From positions 2,455,277 through 2,519,276 of the forward strand of contig NZ_CP060395.1 of NCBI RefSeq assembly GCF_015840335.1: DNA of 64,000 nt. Reading direction: 5' to 3'. The position numbers and the translations under genes are program-made. Positions 1 to 53,205 of this stretch are shown here, in pieces; position 1 is the stretch's first letter; every line of letters starts with the position of its first letter. The notes beneath the pieces were generated by a model. The model was given only the letters and a program-made list of their open reading frames with translations. It was not told the origin of the DNA and made no database searches. Origin of the DNA: Synechococcus sp. CBW1108 (lineage in GTDB: Bacteria > Cyanobacteriota > Cyanobacteriia > PCC-6307 > Cyanobiaceae).

Positions 1-1
1 G

Positions 2-103
2 ATTGGGCTTGAGAAAAACAAAGCATGGTGGGGTCTCAAGAATCTGACATTTAACTTCTTGCGATATCTTCTAAGAGCAAATCGTGCATTTGCACTCGCA
101 TGA
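2..103 (+). CDS. C-terminal end of an unidentified protein (partial)
   Basis: An open frame enters from the left window edge and stops at a TGA at 101-103. It gives 33 residues, basic and aromatic, ending NRAFALA. It lies upstream of, and on the same strand as, the ABC exporter, so it is probably the end of another gene of the polysaccharide locus. Too little is visible to name a family. The 238 bp after it, up to the exporter start, hold no other gene that I can support. Confidence 0.5.
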   Translation: MGLEKNKAWWGLKNLTFNFLRYLLRANRAFALA

Positions 104-341
104 GTAATAATTTTCATGAGGCTGCCTGATTCAATTTAGTCGTTTTGTTGTGCAAATTATTAGATCGTTTGGCGCCGCAAGGCGTTTTTTTTGCAAGCGG
201 CTGTAGGTGTGAAATTCTTGATTTTTCGAGGTCCCCTTAAGCTTGGTAAAAAGCTAGACCCTTTTCGCGTTTTCTTATTGTGAGTATCGTTCAGCCCACT
301 TTGTACGCCCAACCTGCTGTAACTGCTGGTATTTAATTAAC

Positions 342-2198
342 ATGTTAAATATATCTTTTGCCAAGACTAAATTCTTCAAGGATTTATTGTCGCCTTGTTT
401 TAGTAATCAACCTGCTGCCGCATTGATCAGGAAAACTGCGCGACAACAGTGGCGTCTAATTTCTACCAACCTTATAAGTTCTGTTTCTCAAGCTTTTTGT
501 GAAGCATCCACATTAGGGGTTATTTTTTTGGCGGTTGAGGTTCTGTCGGCGCCTTCAAGCGGTTTCAATTGGAACGCAACCCCCTTGGTGGCTTGGCCGC
601 CAGCAGTTTTTTTTCTGAATAAAATACCGGGAACATCTCTGTTTCTACTGCTTTTGGTGCTTGCAGTTCTTCTTAAGGCAATACAGGGTTTTTCTGAATA
701 TTTTAACAATATTAGTATTTCCTACTTTAGTGCAAGATGCAGAGCTTTGATTACCGGAGAGATTCATTCTCGTGTTTTATCTTTCGACTTTCCATGCGTC
801 AGTAAATACAAGATAGGTGATCTTGCTGACTACACCAGAGAAGGCCCCGAGGCAATAAGGATTCAGATCGAGGTCATCAGTAACCTGATAGTTGGCATCC
901 TTCTTGCATCGACATATCTCTTTGTATTGGTTAGATTGTCGCCATGGCTGTTATTAGCCGTTTTGGTGTTGGCAACTTGCATCTCTTTTATCCAAAGTCA
1001 ATTATTGCCAAGGATCCGCGTAGGTTCTTCTAATCTCGTGCACACCCAAGTTGATGTTAGCAGCCGTCTCACTGAAGATTTTCAAGGGATTCGCCTACTT
1101 CATACCAGTGGCCAACTTGGTGTAGCAGTCAATCGCCTAAGAAGTAAAATGGCCTTGCTCGAGTTGCAGTTTCGGCAACAAGCAAGACGCTTAGCTGTTG
1201 TAGCACCAATCTCAGGTTTCCTTCCCATCTTGGCTATTGCCTTTATTGCTGGCTTTAGCGTTTTCTTGCTAGGAGACAAGACAAGTATGTTGGCTAGCCT
1301 TGTTACATTTGTCCTAGCGCTGCAACGGTTAACCCAGCGCTTGAGTATGATTGCTGGTACTTTAAATCAAAGTGCTGACAATAGTGGCAAATTAACGCGA
1401 TTGAATCAAATACTTTCTCCTATTGACAAGCAATTCCGTCGCAGTGGCGGAATCCCTTTTGTAGAGATTCGTCAGAGTATTAGCTTCAATCAGGTTGGCT
1501 TACAATACTCACCCGATTTGCCAGCTTCCCTTATTGACATTTCCTTTTCCTTGCCTAAAGGACAGACGTTAGCGCTCGTGGGACCAAGTGGAGCAGGTAA
1601 GAGCTCTATAGCTGACATGATAACCGGTCTTTATGCACCCACCAGCGGAAAAATACTTATCGATGATGTCGCCTTAGATCAGTTAGATCTAGATTCTTGG
1701 CAGCAGCGATTGGGGGTTGTTAGCCAGGATACTTTTCTTTTTAACGCTACAATAGCTGAAAATATCTCATTCGGTACATCTGGCGTAACCATGACCAAAC
1801 TTAAAGCAGCATGTGATGCAGCCCAGGCAACAGGCTTTATTGAAAGTTTGCCACTCGGTTACAATACTGTGGTAGGTGAACGGGGGTACCGCTTGAGTGG
1901 AGGTCAGCGACAACGTTTGAGTCTGGCACGGGCGATTCTTCGAGATCCAGAGCTGCTTATCCTTGACGAGGCAACGAGCGCACTTGATTCCCAAAGCGAG
2001 TTATTAGTTCAACAGGCAATTGAGAAATTTCAGCGCACCCATACGGTTTTGGTTATCGCCCATCGACTTAGCACTATTACTCGCGCCAATGAAATTCTAG
2101 TTCTTGATCGTGGTCGAGTTATTGAGAGTGGATCTCATGAGCAACTACTAAGAAAGCATGCATTGTATTATAATTTATGGTCCCAGCAGACATCATAG
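342..2198 (+). CDS. ABC transporter with fused membrane and ATPase domains (MsbA/PglK type)
   Basis: This 618-residue protein has the layout of a half-size ABC exporter: an N-terminal membrane domain of about 350 residues with several hydrophobic stretches, then a C-terminal ATPase. The ATPase shows Walker A GPSGAGKSS (about residue 414), the signature LSGGQ (about 518), Walker B LLILDEATSALD (about 538) and a later switch histidine in VIAHRLST. Homodimers of this family flip lipid A, lipid-linked oligosaccharides or peptides across the inner membrane. In a locus full of glycosyltransferases the likely cargo is a lipid-linked glycan, but that is inference; a drug or peptide exporter cannot be excluded. 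The first ATG after an AT-rich leader is taken as start. No Shine-Dalgarno sequence is obvious, which is common in cyanobacteria. Confidence 0.9.
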   Translation: MLNISFAKTKFFKDLLSPCFSNQPAAALIRKTARQQWRLISTNLISSVSQAFCEASTLGVIFLAVEVLSAPSSGFNWNATPLVAWPPAVFFLNKIPGTSLFLLLLVLAVLLKAIQGFSEYFNNISISYFSARCRALITGEIHSRVLSFDFPCVSKYKIGDLADYTREGPEAIRIQIEVISNLIVGILLASTYLFVLVRLSPWLLLAVLVLATCISFIQSQLLPRIRVGSSNLVHTQVDVSSRLTEDFQGIRLLHTSGQLGVAVNRLRSKMALLELQFRQQARRLAVVAPISGFLPILAIAFIAGFSVFLLGDKTSMLASLVTFVLALQRLTQRLSMIAGTLNQSADNSGKLTRLNQILSPIDKQFRRSGGIPFVEIRQSISFNQVGLQYSPDLPASLIDISFSLPKGQTLALVGPSGAGKSSIADMITGLYAPTSGKILIDDVALDQLDLDSWQQRLGVVSQDTFLFNATIAENISFGTSGVTMTKLKAACDAAQATGFIESLPLGYNTVVGERGYRLSGGQRQRLSLARAILRDPELLILDEATSALDSQSELLVQQAIEKFQRTHTVLVIAHRLSTITRANEILVLDRGRVIESGSHEQLLRKHALYYNLWSQQTS

Positions 2199-3040: not shown

Positions 3041-3720
3041 CAGTTTATCTAGCAGTGCTTTCAGCAGGTCATTCAGCAAGCAGCGCGACAAGGCGCTGCT
3101 GAGGGCTTAGGAAACCGAGGGCCATGTGACAGCTGCGCCGGTTATAGAGCCCTAGGTGCGAGGAAGCCACCGCTTCCGCTCCTCCGTGGTCTGGAATGGC
3201 ATCCCACAGGACCATTCCCGGCAAAGGGTCTGGATGAACGATCGGCCTTGCCGTTGGTGCGGGGCGTGTATGGCTTGGTGCGGATGGCTTGAGAGCGAGG
3301 GTCTTGCAGGCTTTGCGCTAGGCACCCGAGCGGTAGGCAGAGCCTTTGTCTGAGAGGACGCGCCGGCAGGTGGTTCCCTGCTCGCTGAACCAGTCGACAG
3401 CCCGAGCCAGGAAGCCGACAGTCGTGACCTTCTGCCCATCCGGAAGCACCTCGACATTGTGCAGTCGTATGGTGTCGTCAATGGCGACATGCACCTTCTT
3501 GTATCCAGCGCCCCTCGAACAGCCTTTACGCGTGTCGCCGGTGATGCGGTGGCCAACCCGCTAGAACCTGTCAGTTGTTTGGTGTCGACATGGATCATGT
3601 CGCCCGGCTTCTCCCTCTGCTACCGCTGCATCGAGGGCAGCTTCGCACAAACGCAAGCGCTTGGGTTCCAGGTTCCGCAGCCGCCCGAGCACTAGGGCCT
3701 TCATGACCCGTCCCGCCGGG
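3040..3720 (-). pseudogene. Decayed IS481-family transposase, middle and C-terminal part
   Basis: In several frames of the minus strand this stretch matches the better preserved IS481 transposase at 51.9-52.8 kb. Recognisable pieces are LRNLEP near 3660-3690, MIHVDTKQL near 3590, and a C-terminal block with ERKRWLPR and CHMALG near 3075-3160. IS481 transposases are DDE enzymes with a helix-turn-helix N-terminus, which is missing here. Several frameshifts and stops make it a dead fragment. It abuts an IS256 remnant on its right. Confidence 0.75.
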
Positions 3721-47790: not shown

Positions 47791-48252
47791 AAGCCAACTG
47801 CAGTGCTACTCCCGATCATAGCTTTTTGTTGTGCAGCGAACTAAAAGTATGTTCAAGGTGCGCTCCTGGCTTTTGTCACTCCTCCCAGCGCCAGCATTCC
47901 CTTGATGTCGTAGGCCAGCTCGCGCAGACCTTGGCGGATCGAGCGGTAACCGCCGCGCCGTAGCAAGTTCATCACGATGGTGCGCAGGAAGGCGAACACT
48001 GGAGCACCGATCCGGTTGGCGTAGCGATGGGCGTCCTCACCCAGTTGGGCGTCGCGGGCCCAGTGCCACTCGTTCTCAATGCTCCAGCGCTGCCGGATCA
48101 GGCGCAGCAAGGCTTCTGGAGTGGTGCGCACGCTGGTGAGGAATAGATGCCGCCGCACGCTGCGCTTGCCCTTGCGGGTCAGCGTGTCGGTGATCACCTC
48201 CACGATCCAGGCGCTGCCAGGCCAGTTGGCCTTGATGTGCTCCGGGGCCTCC

Positions 48253-48278
48253 TACCGCTCCGCGGAAGCCTTCGGCTA
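48253..48278 (-). repeat. Double mini-hairpin element H11
   Basis: Read on the minus strand: TA, stem GCC/GGC with loop GAA, linker TT, stem CCGC/GCGG with loop GGA, TA. Same place in ISAs1 as H4 (5139-5164). Confidence 0.9.
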
Positions 48279-48403
48279 GGGCCTGCAGCTCCCAGACGGT
48301 GTCGTGCCCGTGGCGCTTCTCGCGGTCGGTTGCCGTGAACGGGATGTGACCCTTTCCCTGGAACTGGCTGCCGATCTGGCGGTAGAGGCTCTTCTGGTTG
48401 CTC

Positions 48404-48429
48404 TACTCCTTCGGAGAAGCCTTCGGCTA
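48404..48429 (-). repeat. Double mini-hairpin element H12
   Basis: Read on the minus strand: TA, stem GCC/GGC with loop GAA, linker TT, stem CTCC/GGAG with loop GAA, TA. In the transposase frame it begins with TAG and ends with TAG. Same place as H3 (4988-5012). Confidence 0.9.
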
Positions 48430-48994
48430 GACGGTCAGGAGCACGTCGGCCCCCTGGGAGAGGCACCAGTGAAAAACGACTGCGTCGTGTGGAGCGCGTC
48501 CGCCTGGATCAGCACGCCTTCCAGGTCAAGGCTGCTCAGCAGATCCTTGAGAGCAGCCCGCTCGCTGGATTCGTGAGTGTCGTAGGCCTTCTGGGCCATG
48601 GCGACGCCAAGGGCCCGGGCATAGACCGTCACCTTGGCCACAAAACGGTGGCTGCCCTCCTCCGTCTCGATGGCAGAGCCGCGCAGGGTCTTGCCGTCAC
48701 ACACCAACTGGTCCAGACCATCAGCCCCGCCTGGGATCTGGCTGATCATCCAGGCCTGCAGCACCTGCCCAAATTCCTGCAGGTGGGCCTTGTTGAAGAG
48801 GTAGAGAAAGGTGGCATCCGAGGGCCAGCGCTTGAGCTCCAGGCCGAGCGCCTGATTCAACGCCTCACGGTGCCTCCTGGCGAACGCCTCCAGATCCCGG
48901 GAACTGCGGCAGCCACTCAGGATCCCGAGGACGGCTACCAGCAGCAGGAACCACTGCGGGTAACGAACCCCACGGCGGTATCGCCCGTCCGGAA

Positions 48995-50714
48995 CGGTGA
49001 CTTTCAGGAAAGTTGTCACTCCTTGGCTGCCATTCAGGCGGCCTTGATTAAGGGTAGCGCCAGGACCGGATCGGGCTCTTCTGTTGGCTTGTTTATCCAC
49101 ACTTCTGCCGGTTGACTCCAGCAGCGGGTGGCACCGCTCCAGCGCGTTGGATTGGCACGGCGGGCGGCCTCGTAGACATCAGTGCGCTGCTGGCAAATGG
49201 CCTTGGCAGCTCCACTGTGGCGCTGGTGGGGCGTCACGAATTTGATCGCGCTGTGGTGGTGCCGGTGGTTGTACCAATCCACAAATGCTGCCACCCATTC
49301 ACAGGCCTCCTCTTTGTTGGCGAATGGCCGGCTGGGGTAGTCGGGGCGGTATTTGACCGTACGGAAAAGGGATTCCGAGTATGGGTTGTCGTTTGAGACC
49401 CTTGGCCGGGAGAAGGATCTGAGCACGCCCATCTCCTCGAGCCGTGATTCCAGCGTCGCCCCGCGCATTGCATTGCCGTTGTCGGCGTGGAGGATTAGTG
49501 GCTGCTGCTGGCACTGGCGGCGGCCAAAGCCGTTGGGGCGGTGGTAGCGCTCCTTGAGGCAGGCCCGCTGCACCAGATCCGCGGCGATCTGAGCCGACTC
49601 CACCTCGGCCACATCCCAGGCCACCACTTTGCGGCTCCAGACGTCGATCACCAGGTAGAGGTAGAGCCACACACCCCGCACCGTGGTCGGCAGGAAGCTG
49701 ATGTCCCAGCTCCAAACCTGGTTCGGGCCATCCGCCCTGAGGCGCGGCACCGAGCGCGGTTCTTGAGGCAGCCTGGCCCTCCCCCGGCGGTGGCACTGAC
49801 CCGCCTGGTGCAGCACCCGATAGAAGCTGCTCTCTGAACCAATAAAGAGCTTTTGATCGGACAGTGCCGGCACGATCTGCCCTGGCGGCAGCGCGGCGTA
49901 CTCCGGCTGGTTGCACGTCAGCAGGATTCGCTGGCGCTCTTCCTCGCTCAGGCGGTGACCCACCAGCCGAGCACTGCCTTTACGGCGATCCACGCCGTCC
50001 CCATCACCCAGGAAGGCCTTCCGCCAGCGTTTGAGGGTGCGCAGGCAGATGCCGATCACACCACAGGCCCTCACCAGGCCGGCGCCCGCAGCATTGGCCT
50101 CCCCGATCAGCTCGATCACCTTCCGCCGGTGCACGGCGCTGGTCAGCCTTCCGCGTCCTCCGAACAGAAGGCATCCCACTTTTTTTGCAGCACCAGCAAA
50201 GCCGCCATCTCCGCCATGGCCTTCTCCTTGCGCTGCAGTTCCTTTCTGAGGGCTTTGATCTCCCGCTGGTCCTGGGCGCGGAGCTTCTCGAGCTCCTTCT
50301 GTTCGGCCATCGTCAGCACCGGCTTGGCGTTGGCATCCTGGGCCGCCTGCCGCCAACGGCTCACCTGCTCAGGGAACAGGCCCCGCTCGCGGCAGTAGGC
50401 GCTGAGTTCGGTGGCATTGAGCCCGGCGCTTTCCAGCACCACCGTGAACTTGTCGGCGGCGTTCCAGCCCTCTGGTTCCTTCTCGGATGCCGGCACCACC
50501 TCTCCCTGCAACCGCCAGGCCTTCCTCCATTTGTAGAGGGTCATCACGTGAATGCCCAGCTCCTCTGAAATCCGGGCCACGCTCTGCCTGTGGGGCGGGT
50601 GCATCCGTCTCCTCACATCAGCCTTAACGGCCTCGCTGTATCGGCGCATTGGTCATGTCCTCAAGCCCCCGGATGGATGGATCAAAGGGGTGACATCTTT
50701 CCTGAAACCGGGGG
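48995..50714 (-). mobile_element. IS3-family element, copy 3 (1720 bp, complete)
   Basis: The end sequences match copy 2. The 3-bp target GAA is duplicated at 48992-48994 and 50715-50717. It is inserted in the ISAs1 transposase. Its sequence is close to copy 2 (shared bases that differ from copy 1 at two sites in OrfB), with a few own changes near the end of OrfA. Confidence 0.93.
49034..50649 (-). CDS. IS3-family transposase OrfAB (OrfA 50143-50649, OrfB 49034-50356)
   Basis: OrfA and OrfB are both open, with the same slippery A AAA AAG before the OrfA stop (complement of 50179-50186). OrfA ends SEDAEG instead of SEEEEG. OrfB keeps the integrase core. A functional transposase is expected. 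Confidence 0.9.
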
Positions 50715-50778
50715 GAATGGCCTTGAGGAAGCTGATCAGGTCATCCGGTGCGGGCTGATCTACTGCAGCAAAACGGGT

Positions 50779-51808
50779 CTTGATTACCCAGCTCGCTCCG
50801 CGCACCGCGAGCCTGGGCCGTAGACTGGTACGCACATACCAGTTCAGTCATGGCGCGCAACGTCATCCAGTTCCAGAAAGGCCTTTCACTGCCTGACTTC
50901 CAGCGGCTCTACGGCACCGAGGTGCAATGTGAGGCTGCTTTGGAGAAGGCGCGCTGGCCCGGTGGGTTCCGCTGTCCCCGCTGCAATGGCCATGAGCATG
51001 GGCTGGTCTATGGCCGCAGGCTCAAGCGCTATCAGTGCCGCAGCTGCGGCCATCAGGCCACGCTCACGGCTGGCACGATCATGCAGGCCACGAAATTGCC
51101 TCTGACCACCTGGTTTCTGGCCTTTTACATGATCGGGCAGGCCAAAACAGGGATCTCCTCGCTGGAGCTCAGCCGCCACCTGGGCGTGAACTACGACACC
51201 GCCTGGCTGCTGCACCACAAGATTCTGCGGGCGATGGCTGATCGGGAGGAGGCTTACCTGCTGCGGGGAAAAGTCCAGATCGATGATTCCTACCTCGGCG
51301 GAGAACTGCCGGGCGGCAAGGCAGGTCGGGGTTCAGAGAACAAGATCCCCATCGTCGCGGCCGTCTCCTTGAATGAGGCGGGCCGGCTGATTCACGCCAG
51401 GATCACAGCCGTGAGTGGCTTCAGCTCAGAGGCCATCGCTGAGTGGGCCAAGCGCCATCTGGCGCCCGGCAGTCAGGTGCTCTCCGATGGCCTGGCCTGC
51501 TTTCGTGCCGTGACCACGGCAGGCTGCAGCCATCACGCCATCGTCACCGGTGGGAAGCACCCAAACGACTTGCCGCAGTTCCGTTGGATCAACACCGTGC
51601 TGGGCAACCTCAAGACCGGCTTCAACGGCACCTTCCACGCTTTCAATTTCGACAAGTACGCCAGGCGCTACCTGGGCGGCTTCTGCTTCCGGTTCAACCG
51701 GCGCTTCTCGATGGTTGCGATGACTGATCGCATTGCCAATGCGGTCTGTTGCTGCATGCCCTGCACGGAGCGGGATCTCAGGGTTGCGGAGGCTTATGGG
51801 TAATCAAG
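50779..51808 (+). mobile_element. IS1595-family insertion sequence, copy 2 (1030 bp)
   Basis: Same ends as copy 1. The 8-bp target AAACGGGT is duplicated at 50771-50778 and 51809-51816, splitting the N-terminus of the ISAs1 transposase. Confidence 0.95.
50850..51803 (+). CDS. IS1595-family transposase (ISXO2-like)
   Basis: Identical 317-residue product to 26765-27718: zinc ribbon (CPRC, CRSC), DDSYLGGELPGG block, VLSDGLACF. The two copies have unrelated target sites and full-length frames, which fits recent transposition. Confidence 0.93.
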   Translation: MARNVIQFQKGLSLPDFQRLYGTEVQCEAALEKARWPGGFRCPRCNGHEHGLVYGRRLKRYQCRSCGHQATLTAGTIMQATKLPLTTWFLAFYMIGQAKTGISSLELSRHLGVNYDTAWLLHHKILRAMADREEAYLLRGKVQIDDSYLGGELPGGKAGRGSENKIPIVAAVSLNEAGRLIHARITAVSGFSSEAIAEWAKRHLAPGSQVLSDGLACFRAVTTAGCSHHAIVTGGKHPNDLPQFRWINTVLGNLKTGFNGTFHAFNFDKYARRYLGGFCFRFNRRFSMVAMTDRIANAVCCCMPCTERDLRVAEAYG

Positions 51809-51907
51809 AAACGGGTTTCTGGCATTGGGGGCACTGAGACCCGCCGACCAAACCCAATGCTGACAGCACCGCCAAGGGCTATCGGGAGAGACTTTTAGGC
51901 GGCCCTG

Positions 51908-51943
51908 CCCTTTGTCAGCTGAACAACCTGGTGGGACTACACA
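51908..51943. repeat. 36-bp terminal-type repeat, left copy
   Basis: This stretch (from CCCTTTGTCAGC to GGGACTACACA) recurs in the same orientation at 52808-52843. It looks like the end of an otherwise missing element (inverted-repeat style, TGTGTAGTCCC on the minus strand). It joins the end of ISAs1 copy 2 to the interior of an IS481 gene. Confidence 0.7.
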
Positions 51944-52754
51944 GGTAGGCGATGACGTAGGCCCATTCCTCCAGCAGTGTCTTGATGAATCGTTCGGCCT
52001 TACCATTGGTCTGCGGCGTGTATGCCTTGGTGCGGATGGGTTTCAGGCTCAGTGCCTGACAAGCTTTTCGCCAGTCACCGGAGCGGTAGGCGGAACCATT
52101 GTCCGAGAGAACTCGGCGGCAGGTGATCCCCTGCTCCGAGAACCAGCCGACGGCCCGGGCCAGGAACCCAACAGTCGTCGCCTTCTGCTCGTCGGCGAGC
52201 ACCTCGACGTAGGCCAGGCGGGTGGCGTCATCGATGGCGACGTGCACTTTCTCGTAGCCGGCACCCGGTGAGCAGCCTTGACGGCGGTCGCCGGTGATCC
52301 GATGGCCGACACACTCGAAACGGGCCAGCTGTTTTGTGTCGACATGGATCATGTCGCCCGGGCGCTCCCACTGGTAGCGCTGCACTGGTTTCTTGGGCTC
52401 CAGATTCTTGAGCCGGCCAAGCCCCAGCGAGTTCATCACCCTCCCGACGGTGGAGAGGGACGCCTTGATGGCCCTGGCGATGCGGCGGAGCGTGCAGCGC
52501 TGGTGCCGTAGATCCACGGCCTGTTTCAGTTGCTGCGGATCGAGCGTCCGCCGCTGGGTGCGGCGAACACTCCGTCGATCCGCCAGTGCCGCTACACCGC
52601 CATCACGGAAGCGCGCCAGCCACTTGTAGGCGCTGCGCAAGCTGATCCCGGCTTGCGCCGCAAGGGCCTTTAGCGGCACGCCTTCCTCGAGGTGCCGACG
52701 AATCAGGCGTTCCCGACTGATCGGCGTCAGTCGGGCCAGTGGGTGGCTATGCAT
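51915..52754 (-). pseudogene. IS481-family transposase, C-terminus replaced
   Basis: From MHSHPLARLTPISRERLIRRHLEEG it encodes a helix-turn-helix region (LKALAAQAGISLRSAYKWLARF) and the integrase core: DMIHVDTKQLARFE (first D), VLSDNGSAYRS (second D) and TNGKAERFIKTLLEEWAYV (E region). After VIAYL the frame runs into the 36-bp repeat and stops within it, losing the last 45 or so residues. These are found on the other strand at 52844-52977. The element's left end, TGTGAGGTCGCCAGGG, reads inward from 52806. Confidence 0.85.
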
Positions 52755-52807
52755 GGGATGTGAGGTCTTGGGAAGGGCGGTGACACCCAGACCCTGGCGA
52801 CCTCACA

Positions 52808-52843
52808 CCCCTTTGTCAGCTGAACAACCTGGTGGGACTACAC
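52808..52843. repeat. 36-bp terminal-type repeat, right copy
   Basis: Same orientation as the copy at 51908-51943. It joins the outer left end of IS481 (52806) to the inverted C-terminal piece of IS481. CCTACC next to it matches the IS481 bases beside the left copy, which looks like a 6-bp target duplication now separated by an inversion. Confidence 0.7.
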
Positions 52844-52996
52844 ACCTACCAGACATCGGCTGAACGCAACTGCTGGCTACCCCGCTATCTGGGGATCTAC
52901 AACGGCATCAGGTGCCACATGGCTCTCGGTGGCCTCAGCGATCAGCAGCGCCTCAAGCGGCTGCTGATCGCTGAATGACCTGGTGATAAATCACAC
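52844..52996 (+). pseudogene. IS481-family transposase, C-terminal piece in inverted orientation
   Basis: The plus strand reads YQTSAERNCWLPRYLGIYNG and CHMALGGLSDQQRLKRLLIAE before a stop, the C-terminus missing from the minus-strand gene beside it. CCTGGTGATAAATCACA follows, which resembles the IS481 right terminal repeat. Confidence 0.8.
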
Positions 52997-53205
52997 TTAG
53001 CTTGATGCTGCGGAAATCGCCTCAGTGGCTCCGCCACGCTCGGCCTCTGGCCTCGGTATGTGTCTGCTTCTTGCCCTCCTTGGGAACCCCGAAACCCTCA
53101 CCTGGGCCTGATGGCGGTGGTGGCGGTTCGTCCTGACCATCGATCCGCTCCAGGGAGGCATGGGAGGCCCAGGCCTGCAGCAGGGAGCCATCTACTGAAA
53201 AGTGC
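52997..53205 (-). pseudogene. IS5-family transposase fragment
   Basis: The minus strand reads FSVDGSLLQAWASHASLERIDG near 53130-53200 and then GVPKEGKKQTH. A hairpin-type insertion follows, then GDFRSIKL at the edge. This is the first acidic region of an IS5-type enzyme and fits upstream of the fragment at 15.1-15.9 kb. Confidence 0.7.
53021..53056 (-). repeat. Longer double-hairpin variant H13
   Basis: Read on the minus strand: stem GGCC/GGCC with loop AGA, a short linker, stem GTGGC/GCCAC with loop GGA. It interrupts an IS5 transposase in the same way as the shorter elements but has longer stems and no TT linker, so it may be a related or a separate family. Confidence 0.5.

Follow-up and report, generated by a model that had tools for sequence, protein, structure and literature searches.

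In inside-out or alternative transposition, as in IS10/Tn10 and Ac/Ds, the ends of neighbouring copies of an element are used together and the flanking DNA is rearranged. Members of the IS481 family carry terminal inverted repeats of the TGT...ACA type. One of them, ISRe46 of TnRErm46 (Rhodococcus equi), produces a 6-bp NCTAGN duplication of its target, according to the accessible part of its description (PMC6794481). For IS26, the available portions of two reports describe an in-trans replicative inversion which leaves an inverted target duplication together with a further IS copy (PMC5142620, PMC7986276).

We analysed a stretch of 64,000 nucleotides from Synechococcus sp. CBW1108 (NZ_CP060395.1, positions 2,455,277 to 2,519,276), called here the window, from a genome of one contig of 3.23 Mb. 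It carries the body of an IS481-family element on the minus strand and, directly to its right, an IS481 tail on the plus strand. We regard this locus as a well-resolved, self-inflicted IS481 rearrangement lying among decaying mobile elements, ordinary in kind and mildly unusual in its choice of ends.

Identity and relatives of the IS481 element

The reading frame of the truncated transposase occupies 51915..52754 on the minus strand, where the first-pass annotation had placed the main IS481 gene. This assignment was confirmed by profile: despite its truncation the protein scored 234.8 bits against NF033577 (cut-off 224), and Pfam recognized LZ_Tnp_IS481 and rve domains. It is an IS481-family transposase. 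A scan of named genomes found 19 loci encoding relatives, all but one (18/19) in Synechococcus or Cyanobium. Complete relatives in these two genera measure about 1045 bp; their first bases, nearly identical, lie about 90 bp ahead of the start codon, and their last bases are CACA, a short way past the stop codon. The family-type ends are also present here (left, TGTGTAGTCCCACCAGG; complement of the right end, TGTGATTTATCACCAGG).

A 36-bp sequence found twice at the locus had been taken for the terminus of an element foreign to IS481. Compared with eight relatives, it corresponds to bases 1–36 at 94–97% identity in five and to bases 1–30 at 97–100% in three. On this comparison it is the left terminal end, bases 1–36, of this type of IS481 element. 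The 36 bp belong to normal IS481 elements, which is the finding that the first-pass annotation had named as fatal to its reading, and since they form the left end of these relatives, no foreign element is needed. The full element carrying this end, expected elsewhere in the genome, was not recovered: a genome search with the WH 5701 copy as query (40 of 61 candidates scored) gave no full IS481 copy. Besides the three focal pieces, its hits were one decayed piece (bases 461–1037, 76%), a fragment of 163 bp and a left end of 25 bp.

Identical flanking hexamers were found for 11 of 21 distinct complete copies; flanks differ in nine, and one copy (L111) ends at a contig edge. The 6-bp duplications of these relatives are centred on TA and have the core YTAR, which defines a target preference for a picocyanobacterial group of IS481 elements. 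The element resembles ISRe46, as far as the accessible part of its description goes (PMC6794481), in its single gene with an integrase core, its ends starting with TGT and its 6-bp TA-centred duplication. It differs from it in a core that is YTAR and not strictly CTAG and, at the focal locus, in the inversion of body against tail and the truncation of the transposase.

In a family survey that scored two candidates per genome, at least 99 of 400 genomes held a match; this figure concerns the matches listed and is not a tally of rearranged copies. No viral relative was confirmed in the viral collection searched, and the matches among plasmids were all distant, each covering less than 80% of the query. 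One IS481 element (L037) is a mosaic, 95–100% identical to the WH 5701 copy over bases 1–500 and 65–81% thereafter, a shift that we read as a sign of recombination between elements.

Architecture of the locus and target choice

The two 36-bp copies, at 51908–51943 and 52809–52844, are identical and both in plus orientation in the window comparison, so that the report of one sequence marking both breakpoints in direct orientation stands. An identical 36-bp repeat appeared in 0 of 100 dinucleotide shuffles of the window. Compared with the 1045-bp SynAce01 copy (L034), the locus consists of three pieces: 51943–51908 matches bases 1–36 (minus), 52844–51944 matches bases 1–900 (minus) and 52845–52995 matches bases 895–1045 (plus).

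The first piece (51908..51943, minus strand) is a second left terminal end (IRL) with its tip at 51943, 94% identical to bases 1–36 of the SynAce01 element and 100% identical to the focal element's own end. The body (51944..52844, minus strand) holds the left end, the beginning of the transposase and some 270 codons, the integrase core domain among them; its own IRL lies at 52809..52844, and from the tip at 52844 it is 90 bp to the start codon. The tail (52845..52995, plus strand) contains the last 43 residues, the stop codon (52976–52978) and the right end (IRR). The initial description was right to place the C-terminus on the plus strand, which it occupies from 52845, but the part read from the shared Tyr codon has 43 residues, not 45. 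Its right limit also needs adjustment: the right tip is at 52995 instead of 52996, and the plus-strand piece includes the right terminal inverted repeat in addition to the C-terminus.

Bases 895–900 are present in both large pieces and read CCTACC in each, an overlap of exactly 6 bp. GGTAGG (51944..51949) follows the first 36-bp copy and CCTACC (52845..52850) the second, one inverted relative to the other; the hexamer noticed at both breakpoints is an inverted target duplication. At each junction a left-end tip lies directly on the CCTACC hexamer inside the element's own gene. With the symbols L (left end), M, T (CCTACC) and C (tail with right end), the order is ISAs1 tip, -L, -T, -M, -L, +T, +C, flank. 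Beyond the right tip, CTTAGC (52996..53001) fits the target consensus of the element and is probably one half of the original target duplication. No host gene was seen inside the rearranged stretch.

Given the 6-bp overlap and the left-end tips on an internal hexamer, it is very probable that the element's own ends attacked a copy of the same element, within its own type of gene. This holds for both leading routes discussed below, and the locus provides clean sequence evidence of self-targeting in the IS481 family.

In the body the frame stays open up to the Tyr codon; in the tail it runs on from this codon for 43 residues, as far as the stop. The pieces thus came from one open gene, or from two. 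On the body side, the final codons of the frame read into the second left end: 42 residues beyond the Tyr are missing from the protein, and nine encoded by this end have been added. An intact mobile copy has inverted ends around a full-length gene. Here body and tail lie on opposite strands and all three tips (51943, 52844 and 52995) face to the right, so that no unit with two inverted ends is left; the focal copy is probably dead.

Internal sites were scored with a target matrix derived from 11 matched duplications, 18 single flanks of unmatched copies (including the self-hit L032) and five solo-end flanks, each flank being entered also as its reverse complement. We left out the focal locus, the left flank of L106, which is unclear, the flank of L086 that does not fit (CCTGCG), and the flanks of L128 and L021. 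In this matrix, the breakpoint hexamer CCTACC ties with base 755 for fourth place among the 1041 hexamers of the focal pieces, and 1.85% of random hexamers score at least as high. It is without the consensus A/G at position 5.

A scan of the window and 131 loci, several of which show the focal place in overlapping views, brought up two more left-end self-hits; of its five query elements two were entered in reverse orientation, with no effect other than doubled labels. In SynAce01 (L032), a left-end tip lies against a tail fragment, at base 995 of the latter; L032 1822–1911 and its flanks correspond to a complete IS481 copy inside the tail of an older one, with a left flank, CCTAAG, that is the reverse complement of the right one, CTTAGG. 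The site used there, base 990, reads CCTCAG in the L034 copy, where it ranks 17th. In G165 (L127), a left-end tip whose last bases have diverged abuts base 884, equal second in the matrix, of an oppositely oriented tail. This tail fragment is without its own body and the hexamer beyond the other end is unmatched (read by eye), a pattern that suggests an adjacent deletion. A pair of left-end remnants with outward tips, 4 kb apart in G162 (L128), was considered as a mobile unit and rejected, its outer flanks being unmatched.

Routes to the inverted body

A transposase-mediated inversion, as first proposed, is a good reading of the locus; the additional element with a 36-bp terminus is the part of the proposal that is superfluous. 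As in replicative inversion by IS26 and the Tn3 family, within what the available portions of the reports describe, the target duplication is inverted and so is the segment between element and target (PMC5142620, PMC7986276). In these systems two IS copies bracket the inversion (PMC5142620, PMC7986276), whereas at the focal locus both joins involve left ends and no further full copy is present, the breakpoints carrying only bases 1–36, one body and one tail. Plain replicative inversion by one full copy, when worked through step by step, was rejected because a further copy would be left at the second breakpoint; its absence means that a less usual reaction between two left ends is needed. Self-insertion of one excised copy through its left and right ends was also rejected, the second end being a left end and the focal right end being only 61% like left ends. 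The use of two ends from neighbouring copies would be analogous to IS10/Tn10 and Ac/Ds, a likeness derived for IS481 from one footprint. The same footprint for IS481 was not found in the literature searched, of which the coverage is partial.

In the route that we favour, two copies would at the start have stood head to head (-C-T-M-L, spacer, +L+M+T+C). The IS481-family transposase would then have joined two left ends, that of this copy and that of the nearby opposite copy, to CCTACC. By this step the body, with its left end and about 270 codons, would be inverted relative to the tail, the hexamer would be duplicated in inverted orientation and the DNA between the two left ends would be lost. 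The ISAs1-type element, before or after, would have trimmed the second copy to 36 bp. We consider this the best explanation and give it about an even chance of being correct. The inverted body, the inverted duplication and the two ends pointing the same way would all issue from one event. The overlap has the length of the duplications of other copies (exact in 11/21), both joins were found on testing to use left ends, and the hexamer ranks high in a matrix that omits this locus. Self-hits recur (L032, L127), and a possible type of partner exists in the short solo left ends L081–L085. Against it, the genome search yielded nothing more of the second copy, the spacer presumed lost cannot be recognized, the reaction itself would be of a less usual kind, the hexamer deviates from the consensus at position 5, and body and tail have different nearest relatives, as if two copies had contributed.

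The chief alternative, which we judge less probable but a genuine contender, is serial nesting. A second copy would have inserted at CCTACC of a first, in opposite orientation, and a third would have struck this hexamer in the second; a deletion linked to ISAs1 would then have removed everything left of the third copy's base 36, body and tail deriving from different copies. Standard insertions with a 6-bp duplication suffice for this, the hexamer is among the best internal sites, and element ends do abut the interiors of other copies (L032, L127). The relatives also fit, the nearest relative of the body being the WH 5701 copy (90.9%) and that of the tail SynAce01 (90.7%). However, the affinity shift is not at the breakpoint: it starts near base 700, inside the body, and the elements are mosaics. 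The agreement between body and tail affinities is the 8th lowest of 16 elements and the lowest of the 11 close ones, or the 6th and 7th lowest of 16 with wider body stretches; this comparison leans slightly to nesting. Two independent strikes on one hexamer and the loss of most of three copies would nevertheless be required, and the SynAce01 element, used as query against the window, found no further remnant near the locus. We favour the joining of two left ends over serial nesting.

An unlikely mixture of the two would combine a nested insertion in opposite orientation with a subsequent adjacent deletion by another minus-oriented copy at the same hexamer. It has a parallel in G165 (L127), where a left end lies on a body-less tail with an unmatched far hexamer (by eye), but again the same hexamer would have been struck twice. 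An assembly artefact or homologous recombination between repeats is very improbable: the genome is repeat-rich, but neither is expected to put element tips on an exact 6-bp duplication, and the 36-bp copies, as direct repeats, would recombine to give a deletion, not an inversion. Least credible is the proposal of the first-pass annotation that a different mobile element with a 36-bp terminus inserted and inverted the IS481 tail, a reading permitted by the layout of ends and hexamers alone but contradicted by complete IS481 relatives, whose own left ends start with nearly the same 36 bp, and by the left end at 52844, as far from the start codon as in these relatives.

Beyond this locus, and returning to the joining of two left ends, IS481-family transposase might be able to pair the left ends of neighbouring copies, with the chromosome between them acting as the transposon and the element inactivating itself by inversion; we hold this general form tentatively, with slightly less than even confidence. 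If the route is true, dense IS populations would have a way to make inversions and to disable themselves.

Left border and scattered remnants

The left border of the locus is the terminal piece of an ISAs1-type element (51840..51907), whose tip at 51907 directly adjoins the second left end at its base 36. This contact accounts for the odd length of 36 bp, to which no special role need be given. Sequence that stops at 51907 is repeated elsewhere in the genome, where it has an identical tip and other neighbours. One copy of 1260 bp (L154), near 190 kb, carries the tips CAGGGCCGCC...GGCGGCCCTG and is flanked by a direct 10-bp duplication. In the window the element is in pieces, at 47881–48992, 50713–50742 and 51840–51907, and its frame 48435–49100 matches DDE_Tnp_1_assoc, which we take to denote the ISAs1 family. 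This element of the same genome supplied the tip at 51907, and truncation of the second IS481 end was its sole contribution. It is not linked to IS481 sequence by a 10-bp duplication (its diverged left end was placed by eye), so that a deletion probably accompanied or followed its placement here.

Between two of the ISAs1-type pieces lies an IS1595-family element (50778..51808, plus strand), with 13 other near-full copies in the genome at 99–100% identity, a sign of recent expansion in this genome. A gene with an rve domain, apparently IS3-like, also lies between ISAs1-type pieces. Over 47881–51907, the ISAs1-type element is split by this IS3-like region and IS1595, and itself abuts the IS481 pieces. 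Counting the latter, at least four mobile elements are nested or stacked. The right flank, searched across the genus, matched mostly repeated pieces, and no empty site was apparent from the list of matches.

A decayed second IS481 copy lies at 3055–3713 of the window, with body and tail in normal order and about 76% identity to SynAce01. Among the compared loci, five short solo left ends of 25–71 bp were found (L081–L085). Pieces with only a right end also occur, so that the solo left ends may be mere decay. Four of the five (L081, L082, L083 and L084), of 39–71 bp, have an intact tip and NNTANN flanks. The fifth (L085, 1171–1195), from the focal genome itself at about 993.2 kb, is a 25-bp left end located between an apparent ndhD and a lapA-like gene (by eye); the nearest relative retains part of the same sequence. 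This left end seemingly supplies the stop codon of the upstream gene.
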